DNA from: a virus
Length of the DNA: 28,803 nt
IMG/VR virus record: IMGVR_UViG_3300037490_000020
Location: 1-28,803 of that record
Reading direction: 5' to 3' (one strand)
Within the stretch, counting starts at the first letter, position 1; each line of letters starts with the position of its first letter. Of the stretch, positions 2,073 to 15,791 are shown in pieces. The notes beneath the pieces are model-generated. The model was not told the origin of the DNA. It did not search any database and saw only the letters and a program-made list of their open reading frames with translations. The position numbers and the translations under genes were made by a program.

Positions 2073-2186
2073 TTGCCCTCGGGGACGAAACGGATCACGG
2101 CAACTCGAGCAGGCAGACAGATACCGATGAAGAGCACCAGAACGAAGACCCAACGCAGCAACAGTGCCCAAACGAAGCTCAAGTGA
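2073..2186 (+). CDS. Possible small basic peptide (37 aa, TTG start)
   Basis: A short frame fills the gap between the ejection protein and the PurD-like gene. It would start at TTG 2073, with AGG at 2060-2063 nine bases upstream, and end in a TGA that overlaps the next GTG (GTGA at 2183-2186). That coupling resembles other junctions in this phage. The peptide is rich in Lys, Arg, Thr and Gln, with no hydrophobic segment. An internal ATG at 2127 would give only 19 residues. It may be a leader for translation of the next gene or simply an open frame; low confidence. Confidence 0.28.
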   Translation: MPSGTKRITATRAGRQIPMKSTRTKTQRSNSAQTKLK

Positions 2187-3502
2187 AGGTCCTCATCATC
2201 AGCATGGACTCAATCGGGGAAGGATTGGCACTTGCACTGAGAGCGGTTCAGTCCGGTCACGCGGTGCGCTTTTTCCTGGGAAAGAACGCCAATCCTACCA
2301 TCGGAGAGGGCTTCAAGGGCATCGAGAAGATCGCCAACTGGCTCACTTCCATCCCCTGGGCGGATCTCGTGATACCCACGGGCAACCATGAGTTCATGAC
2401 ACGGCTTCAGGGAGCCCGGGACCGCACTGCCGTTTTCGGACCCTCGGTGTCTTCCGCGAAGCTCGAGATCGACCGCGCCTTGGGGATGGAGTTTTTCGAG
2501 GATCACGATATTGAGGTACCGCCGTTTGAGACATTCGATTCCCTGGAGGAGGCTGAAAGCCACGTTCGCAAGACTGAGAAAAGATATGTCTTCAAACCGT
2601 TAGGCGATGAGGATGATAAATCCCTCTCCTATTGCAGCAAGTCACCGGCCGATATGGTCGCGCGGTTGCAGCGGTGGCAGAAGCTCGGGATGAAGCTCAA
2701 GGGGTCCTGTATGTTGCAGGAATTCATCGAGGGGATAGAGCTCGGAGTCTCGCGGTGGATGGGGGCGGAAGGGTTCATCGGCTTGCCGAACGAGAACTGG
2801 GAGCGCAAGAAGTTCCTGGCCGGGGATGTGGGCCCGAACTGCGGGGAGGCGGGCACCATCCTCAAGTACGTATCGTCCTCCCCGCTCTTTGATGCGGTTC
2901 TCGCCCCGCTGGAGGAAGCCCTCGTGAGCATGGGGCATCTCGGCGACATCGATGTGAACTGCATCATCGATGGCACGGGCAAGGCGTGGCCGCTCGAGTT
3001 CACTGCGCGCCTCGGCTGGCCGGCCTTCAACATCATGATGGCGCTGCACAAGGGCGACCCCGTGCAGTGGATGCTCGATGCCTGCGAGGGGGAGGATACG
3101 CTCGAAGTCTCGCCTAAGATCGCGGCCGGCGTGGTCGTTGCACAACCGGACTATCCCTACTCCAAGCTCACCAAGGCTGAGACCGATGGGATCCCGATCT
3201 ACGGCGTGACAGAAGAGAACAAGCGCTACATATCTCCGCAGTCGGTGAAGATCACGACGGTGCCGGCCATGAACGGCGAATCCCTGACGGAGTCACCCAC
3301 CTGGACGAGTGCGGGAGATTACCTCGCTGTGGTGACGGGTACGGGCAAGACGGTGCTCGAAGCCTGTACCCGCGCGTATAAGACGGTGGATGAGATCCAC
3401 GTCCCGGACATCATCTACAGAGATGACATCGGCGAAGCGCTCGATGAAAAGATCCCCGAGTTGCAGAAGCTCGGCTTTGCGCAGGAGTTCACATACGGAT
3501 GA
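2183..3502 (+). CDS. PurD-like ATP-grasp ligase (GARS family)
   Basis: The 439 residues match the length and domain order of phosphoribosylamine-glycine ligase. There is an N-terminal Rossmann-like start (KVLII, residues 2-6), an ATP-grasp core with FKPLG near 137-141 and a GPNCGEAG segment at 217-224 that parallels PurD GPNTGGMG. LEFTARLG at 271-278 parallels the metal-binding LEFNARFG. A GARS-C-like end follows (VVTGTGKTVLEA, then HVPDIIYRDDIG). PurD enzymes join glycine to phosphoribosylamine using ATP. However, the glycine-rich substrate loop usual near residue 10 (GGGREH) is absent and reads SMDSIGEG, so the substrate may differ. GTG 2183 is preferred because it retains the first beta strand. 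Its stop overlaps the tail-fibre ATG. Confidence 0.8.
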   Translation: MKVLIISMDSIGEGLALALRAVQSGHAVRFFLGKNANPTIGEGFKGIEKIANWLTSIPWADLVIPTGNHEFMTRLQGARDRTAVFGPSVSSAKLEIDRALGMEFFEDHDIEVPPFETFDSLEEAESHVRKTEKRYVFKPLGDEDDKSLSYCSKSPADMVARLQRWQKLGMKLKGSCMLQEFIEGIELGVSRWMGAEGFIGLPNENWERKKFLAGDVGPNCGEAGTILKYVSSSPLFDAVLAPLEEALVSMGHLGDIDVNCIIDGTGKAWPLEFTARLGWPAFNIMMALHKGDPVQWMLDACEGEDTLEVSPKIAAGVVVAQPDYPYSKLTKAETDGIPIYGVTEENKRYISPQSVKITTVPAMNGESLTESPTWTSAGDYLAVVTGTGKTVLEACTRAYKTVDEIHVPDIIYRDDIGEALDEKIPELQKLGFAQEFTYG

Positions 3503-7551: not shown

Positions 7552-7737
7552 GTGTTAATGACCGTCGTCCTGATCTTCATCATACTCGCGGCCTTCGCAT
7601 TAGTGTGGTGGGGCGTACAGCGTCTGGCGATCCCAGAACCGATCAAGACCGTGGTGTTGGTTATTCTCGGGCTTGTGGCGCTGGTGTTGATCTACAACTT
7701 CATAGCTGGCGGCGGGGTGCGTCTTAATTTCCGTTGA
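7552..7737 (+). CDS. Small two-helix membrane protein (61 aa)
   Basis: A strong ribosome binding site GGAGGT at 7541-7546 precedes GTG 7552 by five bases; ATG 7558 is a weaker choice. Two hydrophobic helices are separated by a short Pro-Glu-Pro-x-Lys turn (IPEPIKT). Similar peptides occur in phages and bacteria as uncharacterised membrane proteins, and the topology would suit a class II holin. It is the last rightward gene of the lysis block and its end overlaps the convergent HNH-type gene by 46 bases. No terminator hairpin was seen between the two. Confidence 0.65.
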   Translation: MLMTVVLIFIILAAFALVWWGVQRLAIPEPIKTVVLVILGLVALVLIYNFIAGGGVRLNFR

Positions 7738-8204
7738 CGGCGATTGTGGACTTGTTCAAACGCAGTAGCCCAACGACAGTTGGTTGGCTCGTAATCACTA
7801 TCGTTGTTAATTCGGTCTATAGATTTGCCTTTGGGACGCTCACCCATGTCTGCTAAGAACGTCTCAAATCTGTGCCACGCAACGCAGACTTTAATGCCTC
7901 GGCCTCCATACCTGTCATAGGCTGGATTCTTCTGGTTTTCGCAGCGTTGAATCATTAAAGACCAGATTCGATATTCGGTTGTGCGGGAGAGCCCATGAGT
8001 TCTATGGATGTCTCCGTTGATCACGGGTTTTTGGCAACCGCATGAGGTAGATAAACCTCGGTAGACATTTTGGAAATTTATTGCCTTTTTTACACCGCAA
8101 ACACACTGATATTCAGCGAACCTTCGTCCGTTTACTGATGGTAATAGCCTGATGAGCGTTAAAGACCCGAAGACAGTTCCCAATTCAAATTGTTTCGGTC
8201 GCAT
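7692..8204 (-). CDS. Zinc-finger HNH-type (putative homing) endonuclease-like protein
   Basis: The 170-residue protein has an N-terminal half with paired cysteines (C34-x-C36 and C55-x-C57) like the CDCG...SCGC zinc modules of phage homing-type proteins. A second module runs from HGLSRTTEYRIW through YGGRGIKVC to GERPKGKSIDRINNDSDY and NCRWAT, a well-known phage family related to HNH/AP2 proteins. The DNA is visibly AT-richer than the flanking genes, suggesting later acquisition. It sits at the left end of the leftward operon, tail-to-tail with the lysis block. Cleavage activity is inferred from the family, not from a defined active site. Confidence 0.75.
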   Translation of the reverse strand: MRPKQFELGTVFGSLTLIRLLPSVNGRRFAEYQCVCGVKKAINFQNVYRGLSTSCGCQKPVINGDIHRTHGLSRTTEYRIWSLMIQRCENQKNPAYDRYGGRGIKVCVAWHRFETFLADMGERPKGKSIDRINNDSDYEPTNCRWATAFEQVHNRRQRKLRRTPPPAMKL

Positions 8205-10520: not shown

Positions 10521-10828
10521 AACGCGGCCTCGAATTCTTCGTCGGTCATGTCGTAGCCTGCCGCTGCCAAAGCGGTCTCAAGGGCTGTCACTAGCGGCTC
10601 AGGAAACGCGCAAAGGTCGTCCTCGTAGTAATATCTGCCAGTCGGTTCATTCACCAGCGCCTTCGCAGCCACAGCGACCGCGCGTAACCACACGACCTCA
10701 GCCAGCAATTCGTCGTAATCCTCGAAGTGCACAAAGCCACCCTCGGGGTGTTCGTCCATGCCGGTATGGTCGCCGGGTGGCGGATCAAATCGCTTGAGCT
10801 TCTGATCTGCAGTCTTCGGCTCATTCAT
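10517..10828 (-). CDS. Hypothetical acidic early protein (103 aa)
   Basis: ATG overlaps the upstream stop (ATGA at 10825-10828) and its own stop overlaps the next ATG. It is acidic, with an HFEDYDELLAEVVWLRAVAVAAKALV helix region (about 34-59) and an acidic C-terminus. I do not recognise a domain. The double coupling argues that it is translated. Confidence 0.65.
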   Translation of the reverse strand: MNEPKTADQKLKRFDPPPGDHTGMDEHPEGGFVHFEDYDELLAEVVWLRAVAVAAKALVNEPTGRYYYEDDLCAFPEPLVTALETALAAAGYDMTDEEFEAAL

Positions 10829-11631
10829 GCCGCAATCCCCGCGCAGAACGGCACGACTGGCGCATCGGCCATGAACTGCAGAAGCTTCTCCGCCATTCGC
10901 TCATAGCACTTGCGCCGAGCGGCGGCGGCGTAGGCGGCGGCGTCGGCGGCGTTGACGGCGTCGGCGGCGGCGTAGGCGGCGGCGTCGGCGGCGTCGGCGG
11001 CGTAGGCGGCAGCGGCGTAGGCGGCGTTGACGGCGGCGTAGGCGGCGTTGGCGGCGTTGGCGGCGTTGGCGGCGGCGTCGGCGTTGACGGCGTTGGCGGC
11101 GGCGTCGGCGTTGACGGCGGCGTAGGCGGCGTAGGCGGCGGCGTCGGCGGTCCACGCCTTAGACCGAGCCTCTAAAGCGGCTCGCCGCGCCAGATCTGCG
11201 GCGTTGCGATCACATGGCTCACCCTTTGTGAGTGGGATCAGCACATCCGCGCAGGCTTTGATCTCCTTAGAAACGCGCGGATCGTCGCGGCTCGCGAGGT
11301 CTTCCGTGAGGAGCCAATAGAGAAATTGCCAGCCCACGCGCGATAGGTCGGAGCCTGGCGTAATGGCATTCAGGAAGCGAGCCGGGAATTGCTTGGAGTT
11401 GCCGTTCGCCATCCCTTCAAATAATCGATCCTCAAGCCGCGCCAGCATGATTGGGATGCCGAGCTCGGTCTCGAACGCTTTATGAGACGAGCTGTGGACA
11501 GTGCAACCAACCGCGCACCCTTTGCCACGCTCCCAATACTTGCCGTGAATAATTTCGTCCTGAGCTTCGTGCAGACGCACGCGGTTGAGGTACTTCTCTT
11601 TGATGGCCGGATCGTTGTGGAAAGCTAGCAT
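10825..11631 (-). CDS. Early protein with a long Ala-rich triplet-repeat insert (268 aa)
   Basis: The N-terminal about 155 residues (MLAFHNDPAIKEKYLNRV, then G-K-G-C-A-V-G-C-T-V-H-S and LEDRLFEGM) resemble a family I recall from phages and bacteria with unknown function. Residues about 160-237 consist almost only of Ala with Tyr, Asn, Asp and Val, encoded by GCC, TAC, AAC, GAC and GTC. A short normal C-terminus follows (CYERMAEKLLQFMA). The insert likely forms a long helix. The end overlaps the next gene by ATGA. Repeat length probably varies between relatives by strand slippage. Confidence 0.75.
   Translation of the reverse strand: MLAFHNDPAIKEKYLNRVRLHEAQDEIIHGKYWERGKGCAVGCTVHSSSHKAFETELGIPIMLARLEDRLFEGMANGNSKQFPARFLNAITPGSDLSRVGWQFLYWLLTEDLASRDDPRVSKEIKACADVLIPLTKGEPCDRNAADLARRAALEARSKAWTADAAAYAAYAAVNADAAANAVNADAAANAANAANAAYAAVNAAYAAAAYAADAADAAAYAAADAVNAADAAAYAAAARRKCYERMAEKLLQFMADAPVVPFCAGIAA
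10919..11152 (-). repeat. GC-rich triplet tandem-repeat array inside a coding region
   Basis: About 230 bases are built of near-identical 9-15 base units (on the plus strand GGCGGCGTAGGC, GGCGGCGTCGGC, GGCGGCGTTGGC and GGCGTTGAC variants). Read on the minus strand every codon is NNC apart from a rare GCT, so the units change the protein only among Ala, Tyr, Val, Asn and Asp. The frame is kept throughout. Confidence 0.9.
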
Positions 11632-11771: not shown

Positions 11772-12302
11772 TTATTCACGCCAATACTCCCCGAAGACTT
11801 CTCGTGCCCTTTTGCAGTAGACCGCATATGCTTCTTCCCTCGAAGTGAAGAATCCGAGGTGATATTGCTTCCGGTTGTACTTTATGGATGCCATCCATTT
11901 ACCGGTCCTCTTGTACAAGAGGACGCCCCTAAGACCGCTCGTATTGTTGGATTGTTTGGACCGATTCGCTGAATTCTGGGCGGCGGAGGCAAGCCTTAGA
12001 TTGGAAATTCTATTATCGTCTTTGATGCAATTTTTATGGTCGAGCATGGCGGGGAAAGATCCGTAGGTTAGTAGCCATGCGATCCGATGGGCGTAATAAG
12101 ATCGGCTGTTAACCTTCAAAAGCCGATAACCCAGCTTGCAGATCCAGCCCGCTGGCATTCCGGCTTTGGCTTTACCTCTTCTAGGAATTTGGCGCCACCA
12201 GAAATGCCCGGTAGCGGGGTCATATTCGTATTTGGCTTCAGCGTCAGCTCGAAGCGTTGATGGCGGGAATTGCCCCGGGTCCTGGCTGTTCTTCGATGTC
12301 AT
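11772..12302 (-). CDS. HNH endonuclease with C-terminal AP2 domain (homing type)
   Basis: From ATG 12302 the protein is 176 residues. YEYDPATGHFWW opens the usual HNH_3 homing-endonuclease layout; His72 in YYAHR, Asp88-His89 in LDHKN and N-R-I-S-N-L-R with A-S-x-x-Q-N-x-x-N complete it. An AP2 DNA-binding domain follows (SGLRGV, W-M-A-S-I, HLGFF, EEAYAVY; about 122-172). Such genes move by cutting unoccupied sites. The coding DNA is AT-richer than its neighbours and its start overlaps the 3' end of the DUF3653-like gene by 59 bases, both signs of insertion into the early operon. Confidence 0.85.
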   Translation of the reverse strand: MTSKNSQDPGQFPPSTLRADAEAKYEYDPATGHFWWRQIPRRGKAKAGMPAGWICKLGYRLLKVNSRSYYAHRIAWLLTYGSFPAMLDHKNCIKDDNRISNLRLASAAQNSANRSKQSNNTSGLRGVLLYKRTGKWMASIKYNRKQYHLGFFTSREEAYAVYCKRAREVFGEYWRE

Positions 12303-12612
12303 CGCGGCTCGCCTCAAGGCTCGCGATTTTCGCCCGCAGCGCGGCGATCTGCGAGTGCATCAGCGGCACGATGAGGGCGTCGTTCCGATTCACGCACCAG
12401 CCGGAAGGCGCGACGAGATCGGGGCCGTTCACGGTCCAGCCTTGCCATTCCTTCGCAAAGCAGCCGAGGTCCCGCGTGAGCACCGCTAGTTCGCAATAAC
12501 CGGGACAGATTGTCCCGGCTTTCCATCGGCTCGCGGTCTTGAGACTGACTCCGCAAGTCTCCGCTATGTGCTTGATCGAGAGACCATAAAGGATGCTGTG
12601 CGGCTGGCCCAT
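12244..12612 (-). CDS. DUF3653-like phage regulatory protein with HTH
   Basis: ATG 12612 is preferred over GTG 12630. A helix-turn-helix fits SIKHIAETCGVSLKTASRWKAG (about 12-33), followed by I-C-P-G-Y-C-E-L-A-V-L-T-R-D-L-G and a W-x-G-W motif characteristic of phage DUF3653 proteins. The C-terminal part is a short coiled coil. A role as DNA-binding regulator is likely. Upstream, an 84-base gap carries a perfect inverted repeat that could be its own operator. The 3' end is overlapped by the HNH/AP2 gene. Confidence 0.75.
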   Translation of the reverse strand: MGQPHSILYGLSIKHIAETCGVSLKTASRWKAGTICPGYCELAVLTRDLGCFAKEWQGWTVNGPDLVAPSGWCVNRNDALIVPLMHSQIAALRAKIASLEASRDDIEEQPGPGAIPAINASS

Positions 12613-14737: not shown

Positions 14738-14961
14738 AACTCACCCTTGCGCTTGATACAGACCTGCTCGGCGTAGTCGTTGTCGTCCCAGTACCAGTAG
14801 TGGGTATCGTCCTCATCCCGTTTGTCGTCGTCGCACGCTTCATGGAAGCTCTCGGTGTCTGCGATGAATTCCGGCGTGTAGCAGACGGTGCAGCGCGAGT
14901 CGGCGTGACAGGGCGGGTCATGCTGCGCATCGCATTCCGGGAAGAGCTCGAGCGTCTTCAT
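14734..14961 (-). CDS. Acidic Cys-rich early protein (75 aa)
   Basis: ATG 14961 is preferred: GGAG lies about six bases upstream and the ATG overlaps the stop of the 37-residue gene before it. A start at 15021 in this frame would overlap that gene. The product has a Cys/His cluster (ECDAQHDPPCHADSRCTVC, about 9-27) and a very acidic end (DDDKRDEDDTHYWYWDDND). It may bind metal and perhaps mimic DNA charge; that is inference. Confidence 0.65.
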   Translation of the reverse strand: MKTLELFPECDAQHDPPCHADSRCTVCYTPEFIADTESFHEACDDDKRDEDDTHYWYWDDNDYAEQVCIKRKGEL

Positions 14962-15071
14962 CGCGGGCTCCGTAGCGCGTGACGCAGCGAGCGCCAGAAC
15001 CGCGGGCGCCCGTACATCCACGCCGTGACGGCGCGGTACTGGCGGAAGCGAAGGATGCGGGAGGAGATCAT
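14958..15071 (-). CDS. First gene of the leftward operon: Arg-rich microprotein (37 aa), probably leaderless
   Basis: From ATG 15071 the frame runs 37 codons and its TGA overlaps the ATG of the next gene (ATGA, 14958-14961). The product is rich in Arg, Trp and Tyr (ILRFRQYRAVTAWMYGRPRF, residues 6-25). No ribosome binding site precedes the ATG; instead the leftward promoter's predicted start point falls on or within two bases of it, implying a leaderless mRNA. The function is unknown; its position matches that of early regulators in lambdoid left operons. Confidence 0.55.
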   Translation of the reverse strand: MISSRILRFRQYRAVTAWMYGRPRFWRSLRHALRSPR

Positions 15072-15077
15072 GTGGGG

Positions 15078-15106
15078 AGGCTACACAAAGCGTGTGCCTC
15101 TGTCAA
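15078..15106 (-). promoter_or_regulatory. Leftward early promoter
   Basis: On the minus strand a perfect -35 TTGACA (15106-15101) and a 17-base spacer lead to TAGCCT (15083-15078), a weak -10. Transcription would begin at about 15073-15071, at the ATG of the first leftward gene. One operator-like site fills the spacer and another touches the -35 from upstream. Confidence 0.6.
15083..15095. promoter_or_regulatory. Operator-like site 1 (ACACAAAGCGTGT)
   Basis: It matches the 13-bp consensus ACACA-nnn-YGTGT and lies in the spacer of the leftward promoter, where bound repressor would block RNA polymerase. Confidence 0.65.
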
Positions 15107-15118
15107 CACATAACGTGT
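15106..15118. promoter_or_regulatory. Operator-like site 2 (ACACATAACGTGT)
   Basis: It is centred 23 bp from site 1, about two helical turns, and overlaps the edge of the leftward -35 hexamer; this suits cooperative binding. Confidence 0.65.
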
Positions 15119-15179
15119 TTCCAATAGTCGAGCGTCTGAGATCCAGAAGGATCAGGCGAAAGAAGGGCGGGTTTCTAAG

Positions 15180-15482
15180 CTAGGGCTGAAGCTGACGTAT
15201 AGCCGAGAGGAGGGCGGCCCGGGCTCCGTTAGGAGCCATTAAGAGGTCCCTGTCGGCCTCATCGACGAGACCCATGAGATAGGCCGCCGGGACGCCGGTC
15301 GCCTGCTGGGCGCGCACAGCGAGCCTTATAGGGAGTTTTCTGAGGCCCTGCTCGTAGTTTCCGAGCGTCGAGGGGAGGATCCCCAGGAGTTTGGCGAACT
15401 CTGACTGACTGCGGTCGCCTCGAGCTTCGCGCATGCGCTGGCCGCAAAGCACCGCCTCGGCCGTCTTTTTCCCCTTCCCCAT
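15180..15482 (-). CDS. XRE-family repressor, HTH only (100 aa)
   Basis: ATG 15482 is chosen; an upstream ATG at 15548 would start within operator site 4's neighbourhood and adds an unconserved-looking segment. Residues 25-47 (SQSEFAKLLGILPSTLGNYE) form a classic XRE/Cro-CI helix-turn-helix. The rest is short and helical, with no LexA/S24 peptidase domain, so inactivation would not be by RecA-stimulated self-cleavage. The gene lies between the two early promoters and reads leftward. It has an operator-like site directly at its start codon, consistent with autoregulation. Likely the lysogeny repressor or its functional equivalent. Confidence 0.8.
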   Translation of the reverse strand: MGKGKKTAEAVLCGQRMREARGDRSQSEFAKLLGILPSTLGNYEQGLRKLPIRLAVRAQQATGVPAAYLMGLVDEADRDLLMAPNGARAALLSAIRQLQP

Positions 15483-15495
15483 ACACAAATTGTGC
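15483..15495. promoter_or_regulatory. Operator-like site 3 (ACACAAATTGTGC)
   Basis: It abuts the repressor ATG and matches the 13-bp consensus except for the last base. It could mediate autoregulation. Confidence 0.55.
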
Positions 15496-15541
15496 TGGAA
15501 CGGTAGGCGACCCTGCCACGAACGAATCGTGTGCGGTTCTA

Positions 15542-15570
15542 TTGCCATCCTACACAGTATGTGTTAAAAC
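15542..15570 (+). promoter_or_regulatory. Rightward early promoter (cro-like gene)
   Basis: TTGCCA (15542-15547, five of six matches to the -35) and a 17-base spacer lead to TAAAAC (15565-15570). The predicted start is at about 15576-15579, on the ATG of the Cro-like gene. Operator-like site 4 occupies the spacer and touches the -10. Confidence 0.6.
15552..15564. promoter_or_regulatory. Operator-like site 4 (ACACAGTATGTGT)
   Basis: It lies in the spacer of the rightward promoter in the same place as site 1 in the leftward promoter. A degenerate fifth copy with a good right half is visible at 15520-15532. Confidence 0.65.
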
Positions 15571-15578
15571 CGGCCACA

Positions 15579-15791
15579 ATGGAACTGCCTGAGTACATCC
15601 GACTGCTCGGAGTTCGCGATTTCGCCCGGAAGTTCGGCGTCACAGAGCGATCGGCTCTCGCGTACCGGCAGCGCACTCGGCGCCCGCGTCCACCGGTGGC
15701 GCAGCGCATCGTGGACGACTCCCCGGTCACCTGGGAGGGCATCTACGCGCCGGAGTTTAAGCCTAAGAAGCGCAACGGCGCCCCGAAGTGA
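15579..15791 (+). CDS. Cro-like HTH protein (70 aa)
   Basis: ATG 15579 is chosen because the promoter start point coincides with it and the HTH begins soon after; a GTG at 15531 would lie upstream of the promoter. Residues 4-33 (PEYIRLLGVRDFARKFGVTE, then SALAYRQ) fit the Cro/YdaS-type helix-turn-helix. A basic Arg/Pro stretch follows, then D-D-S-P-V-T-W-E-G-I-Y, a tail I associate with phage Cro-like proteins. As first gene of the rightward operon and divergent from the repressor it probably acts as Cro. It lacks a ribosome binding site. Confidence 0.75.
   Translation: MELPEYIRLLGVRDFARKFGVTERSALAYRQRTRRPRPPVAQRIVDDSPVTWEGIYAPEFKPKKRNGAPK

Follow-up and report, generated by a model that had tools for sequence, protein, structure and literature searches.

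The window analyzed here is the whole of an IMG/VR virus record, 28,803 bases long and probably a fragment, in which two short regulatory genes diverge from one another. The leftward gene (15180..15482, minus strand) codes for a 100-aa repressor with an HTH_3 match (1.4e-7), and the rightward gene (15579..15791, plus strand) codes for a 70-aa Cro-like protein that has no Pfam match and no curated family above its cut-off. The leftward operon contains genes for a Sak4-like ATPase and HNH endonucleases, and the rightward operon contains a gene for a DUF1376 primosomal-type protein followed by the terminase. Rfam gave no match.

AlphaFold2 predicts seven helices for the repressor (pLDDT 88.6). 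The best fold matches, namely C.Csp231I, SinR, a Salmonella phage repressor and P22 c2, are ordinary XRE proteins with E > 0.001 throughout, which left the repressor without a closer family assignment. A start at the upstream ATG 15548 was considered and rejected, as the extra codons are kept mainly where they overlap operators and as a -44/-77 register of the operators fits ATG 15482.

Elsewhere in the record, positions 2183-3502 encode a protein resembling phosphoribosylamine-glycine ligase (PurD), with a GARS_C match at 2.8e-9 and a TIGR00877 match at 2.8e-24 that falls under its cut-off. In the early leftward operon, 10825-11631 encodes a protein of 268 aa, which contains an extended alanine/asparagine/tyrosine/aspartate-rich repeat (AAYAAVNADAAAN...) and gives a weak tail-fibre profile match. 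The HNH endonuclease genes at 7692-8204 and 11772-12317 have a third-position GC of 0.47 and 0.58, respectively, below that of most of their neighbours, and are possibly recent arrivals; the latter has a 38% relative in another phage record, L179.

Operator sites and predicted promoters

The switch carries a set of 13-bp palindromes, for which ACACA-N3-YGTGT was the form searched for exact sites and ACACR-N3-YGTGT is the looser form that covers the operators. OL1 (ACACAAAGCGTGT, 15083..15095) lies in the spacer of a predicted leftward promoter, PL, with its outer T forming the first base of the -10, a slot shared with the compared relatives. OL2 (ACACATAACGTGT, 15106..15118) is an exact match that adjoins the PL -35, and the centres of the two sites are 23 bp apart. 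The predicted PL consists of a -35 TTGACA (15101..15106, minus strand), a 17-bp spacer and a weak -10 TAGCCT (15078..15083, minus strand) 6 nt before an ATG. Directly after this -10 lies a 37-codon ORF (14958..15071, minus strand) whose stop overlaps the next ATG and which would be leaderless provided that the PL prediction holds.

On the right side, OR3 (ACACAAATTGTGC, 15483..15495) touches the repressor ATG at 15482, as the earlier note had said of its third site, and covers a predicted PRM -10 (CACAAT, 15489..15494, minus strand) 6 nt before this ATG. OR2 (GAACGAATCGTGT, 15520..15532) is degenerate, and its centre lies at -44 relative to the repressor ATG. OR1 (ACACAGTATGTGT, 15552..15564) is an exact match centred at -76 within the spacer of a predicted rightward promoter, PR, so that OL1 and OR1 do occupy the matching slot that had been described for them. 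The predicted PR has a -35 TTGCCA (15542..15547, plus strand), of which TTGC is kept in five phages, and a putative -10 TAAAAC (15565..15570, plus strand) 8 nt before the Cro ATG. A strict sigma-70 promoter scan of the switch found none, and the -10 hexamers are weak. The predicted PR and PRM -10 hexamers lie only 6-11 nt from the ATG, which is too little for a Shine-Dalgarno leader, and both messages therefore look leaderless. With these predicted promoters, all three early transcripts (PL, PRM and PR) would begin at or a few nt from an ATG (15069-15071, 15480-15482 and 15579-15581, respectively), and the one switch thus appears to have three leaderless messages.

The earlier note had counted four exact sites. 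Exact ACACANNNYGTGT matches occur at 15083, 15106 and 15552, the last of these on either strand, and the record contains no further exact copy; 0.09 are expected in 28,803 bases, and shuffling gave 0.09 +/- 0.35 without ever reaching four. At 15483 a single base departs from the motif, though the identical variant is kept in another phage, L032 (L178 is on the same contig). An open scan for any palindrome in ~2 kb around the switch ranked the ACACA-gap3 family, with 4 copies, at the top. We also scored the record with a cross-phage matrix trained on 15 sites from four other phages, with the window left out. The top four positions in 28.8 kb were 15483, 15106, 15552 and 15083, with scores of 17.0-18.2 bits (17.0 for OL1), whereas in shuffled controls the fourth-best score averages 8.6 with a maximum of 11.4. 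The degenerate fifth site that had been proposed at 15520-15532 has two mismatches to the exact motif and ranked fifth at 10.8 bits, followed by 8.4 at rank six. Two-mismatch matches as such have the same frequency in shuffled DNA. In most records the loose core CACRNNNYGTG is no more numerous than in the reversed control, and only its clustering at the switch stands out.

Conservation of the switch in other phages

Homologues of the switch genes are few (four or five), and scans of viral and bacterial contigs with the repressor gave no useful new relative. L032, a 36-kb phage record, encodes homologues of the repressor (46%) and of the Cro-like protein (66% identity, 8e-26; weak HTH_3 and Cro profile matches), and no other window gene was found in it. 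It has OR1, the identical OR3, OR2 at the same place and an OL pair at the same 23-bp pitch. Records L179, L054 and L068 likewise share only switch genes with the window, apart from the one HNH gene in L179. In the window and these four phages both OR1 and OR2 lie upstream of the repressor ATG, with centres 76-78 bp and 43-45 bp away from it, respectively, the Cro ATG follows 19-23 nt beyond the OR1 centre, and the predicted PRM -10 lies 6-8 nt before the repressor ATG. PR and PRM messages look leaderless in the four further phages also. Leave-one-out matrices found a candidate in the OR2 slot of each of the five phages, at locus rank 4 to 8, and OR2 is degenerate in three of them (the window, L032 and L179). 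The 23-bp OL pair that brackets TTGAC recurs in L032, L054 and L068, and an OL pair with a -35-like TTGAC between its sites is found in L181 as well.

Profile searches detected no S24 protease domain in any of the five repressors (P0001, P0004, L054, L179 and L180, the last on the same contig as L068). All five have Y43, Q45, G46 and R48, which lie in and beside the recognition helix. The operator system around an HTH-only repressor suggested by the earlier note is thus well supported, with the exact motif absent elsewhere in the record and the motif conserved, in the same slots, along with homologous switch genes.

A homology search with a Cro alignment, blind to the motif, recovered L178, L179, L180 and L181, and sites were present at the Cro start in 4/4. 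L181 combines a homologous Cro with a different, 110-aa repressor, and all five of its sites read GCACR-N3-YGTGC (L181:1054-1579). The outer base pair is therefore changed to G...C in every site, which suggests a concerted change of operator specificity. Cro homologues on plasmids of Chromobacterium and Iodobacter (L174 and L175) have no sites, and annotated phages yielded no Cro homologue but only weak HTH matches. Among relatives of the window phage by Sak4, terminase or capsid, the loci first examined contained no site cluster, and the Cro protein was found in 0/31 whole records. Collectively, nearly the same layout to the base pair appears to recur in otherwise unrelated phages, and to judge from these comparisons the repressor-Cro cassette is a compact, transferable form of the lambda lysis-lysogeny switch that probably moves between them.

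A scan of IMG/VR for the pair pattern gave 67 contigs with site pairs, some of them near duplicates; a pair lies beside an HTH gene start in 36/67, compared with 2.7 expected on rotating positions. ACACR-N3-YGTGT operators lie beside other XRE repressors in L027, L034, L060, L071, L079 and L088, some of them with an S24 domain, which was detected in the repressors of L027 and L051. One operator type thus lies beside many XRE repressors, with S24 present or absent. In L027, L034, L060, L071 and L088 the sites are at about -66/-43/-20, so that the OR1-OR2 distance of the window group departs from theirs by roughly one helical turn.

Proposed working of the switch and alternatives

The arrangement matches that of lambda and of the prophage CP-933P, and we infer, with good though not full confidence, an immunity switch of lambda logic with a short HTH-only repressor. 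Repressor dimers would bind the ACACR-N3-YGTGT palindromes, blocking PL and the leftward early operon (the Sak4-like recombinase and others) from OL1/OL2, and PR and the rightward Cro/replication operon from OR1. At OR2, centred 44 bp upstream of the predicted leaderless PRM start, the repressor would contact RNA polymerase and activate its own promoter as lambda CI does, and when abundant it would occupy OR3 over the PRM -10 and shut PRM off. The Cro-like protein would be expected to compete for these sites, but in reverse order. As the S24 domain is missing, induction should differ from that of lambda, and for a repressor that has no cleavable domain it could proceed by repressor loss, by Cro winning the competition or through a separate antirepressor. 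Such a route would not be unusual, since phages with short repressors that are not cleavable have been described (PMC4752584, PMC3121763). No antirepressor-like family was found among the left-operon proteins scanned by profile in this incomplete genome. A fuller proposal, which we offer tentatively and hold to be plausible but short of probable, is a transferable cassette whose HTH-only repressor blocks PL/PR and, from an OR2 whose distance to OR1 exceeds that in lambda by one helical turn, also activates the leaderless promoter of its own gene; operator specificity would shift jointly from phage to phage, and an antirepressor would inactivate the repressor.

The closest alternative is a variant of the favoured reading that differs only in the OR2 step, with PL, PR and PRM all blocked, OR2 a remnant without activation, and PRM constitutive with autorepression through OR3. 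The degenerate OR2 in 3/5 phages would fit pure repression of this kind, and certain HTH-only phage repressors are known solely as repressors. However, five phages keep the OR2 slot within -43 to -45 despite diverged sequence, and a -43/-44 slot recurs with the other XRE repressors of L027, L034, L060, L071 and L088, so we regard pure repression as possible but rather doubtful.

It is unlikely that the Cro-like protein is the main binder and that the 100-aa repressor gene controls something else. In four phage loci, L181 with its different repressor among them, the sites do accompany a Cro homologue, but they also stand in fixed register with the repressor starts, they recur beside many XRE repressors that lack this Cro, and the recognition region is common to the repressors. 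We consider it equally improbable that the genes are early regulators of a lytic phage with no lysogeny. The 28,803-base record has no integrase match, as such a phage would predict, but it is probably a fragment, and tyrosine integrases are present in two records with the same switch (L032 and L179), which indirectly supports a temperate lifestyle. The claim of a complete, self-contained immunity switch is partly supported, by the presence of the repressor, the Cro-like gene, OR and OL, and is weakened by the fragmentary contig and its lack of an integrase match. A chance origin of the palindromes beside two divergent genes, to which the background-level counts of two-mismatch matches and of the degenerate core could point, can be dismissed given the exact matches, the cross-phage matrix ranking and the conserved slots, and the conservation seen in L032 and L179 refutes it.

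Comparison with known switches

Immunity repressors that are HTH-only and leaderless are already known, as P2 C, the Gifsy repressors and PaaR2/YdaS of CP-933P illustrate, and a literature search on the motif sequence found no description of the present switch among the titles and abstracts listed. The 136-aa Gifsy repressors have no autocleavage signature and are inactivated by antirepressors under LexA control (PMC3121763), and there are also small proteins that inactivate master repressors by a route not dependent on DNA damage (PMC10432266). The window repressor is similarly short and has no S24 match, but unlike in Gifsy no antirepressor was identified in the window. P2 C is a 99-aa HTH repressor with no protease domain that binds two direct repeats about 22 bp apart flanking a -10 (PMC4752584). 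The window repressor resembles it as a short HTH protein without protease domain and with two sites at a similar pitch, whereas each window site is a palindrome and not a direct repeat.

CP-933P of E. coli O157:H7, a cryptic prophage with a toxin-antitoxin pair, has a divergent HTH repressor, PaaR2, and a Cro analogue, YdaS, which both bind overlapping operators that are 18-bp palindromes of consensus GTTTAGTAA (PMC8630535). PaaR2 undergoes leaderless translation; at low level it activates PRM while repressing PR, and PL is repressed too (PMC8630535). The window shares the divergent HTH repressor and Cro-like gene, and its predicted PRM -10 would give a leaderless repressor message. It differs in its operators, which are ACACR-N3-YGTGT and not GTTTAGTAA, and in its Cro-like protein; the Pfam YdaS profile matched neither P0003 and P0005 nor the Cro proteins of L179, L180 and L181. 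These likenesses to CP-933P and lambda favour repression from OL/OR1, activation from OR2, autorepression from OR3 and Cro competition.

S24-type lambdoid switches are approached by L027, which pairs an S24 repressor with the same operator type as the window. In lambda, CI at OR2 activates PRM, OR2 lies at about -42 to -43 from the repressor start, and the cI message is leaderless. The window likewise has a repressor gene and a cro-like gene that point away from each other, with common palindromic operators at PR/PRM and PL, and its group has OR1 in PR, OR2 at -43 to -45 relative to the repressor ATG, near which the message is predicted to start, and an OL pair at PL. Unlike lambda, the window group has OR1 and OR2 32-33 bp apart (about 23 in lambda), OR3 at -7 and no cleavable S24 C-terminal domain. 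Lambda-like geometry without the cleavage and cooperativity domain, compressed into roughly 500 bp, would allow a direct test of the extent to which lambda's behaviour depends on this domain.
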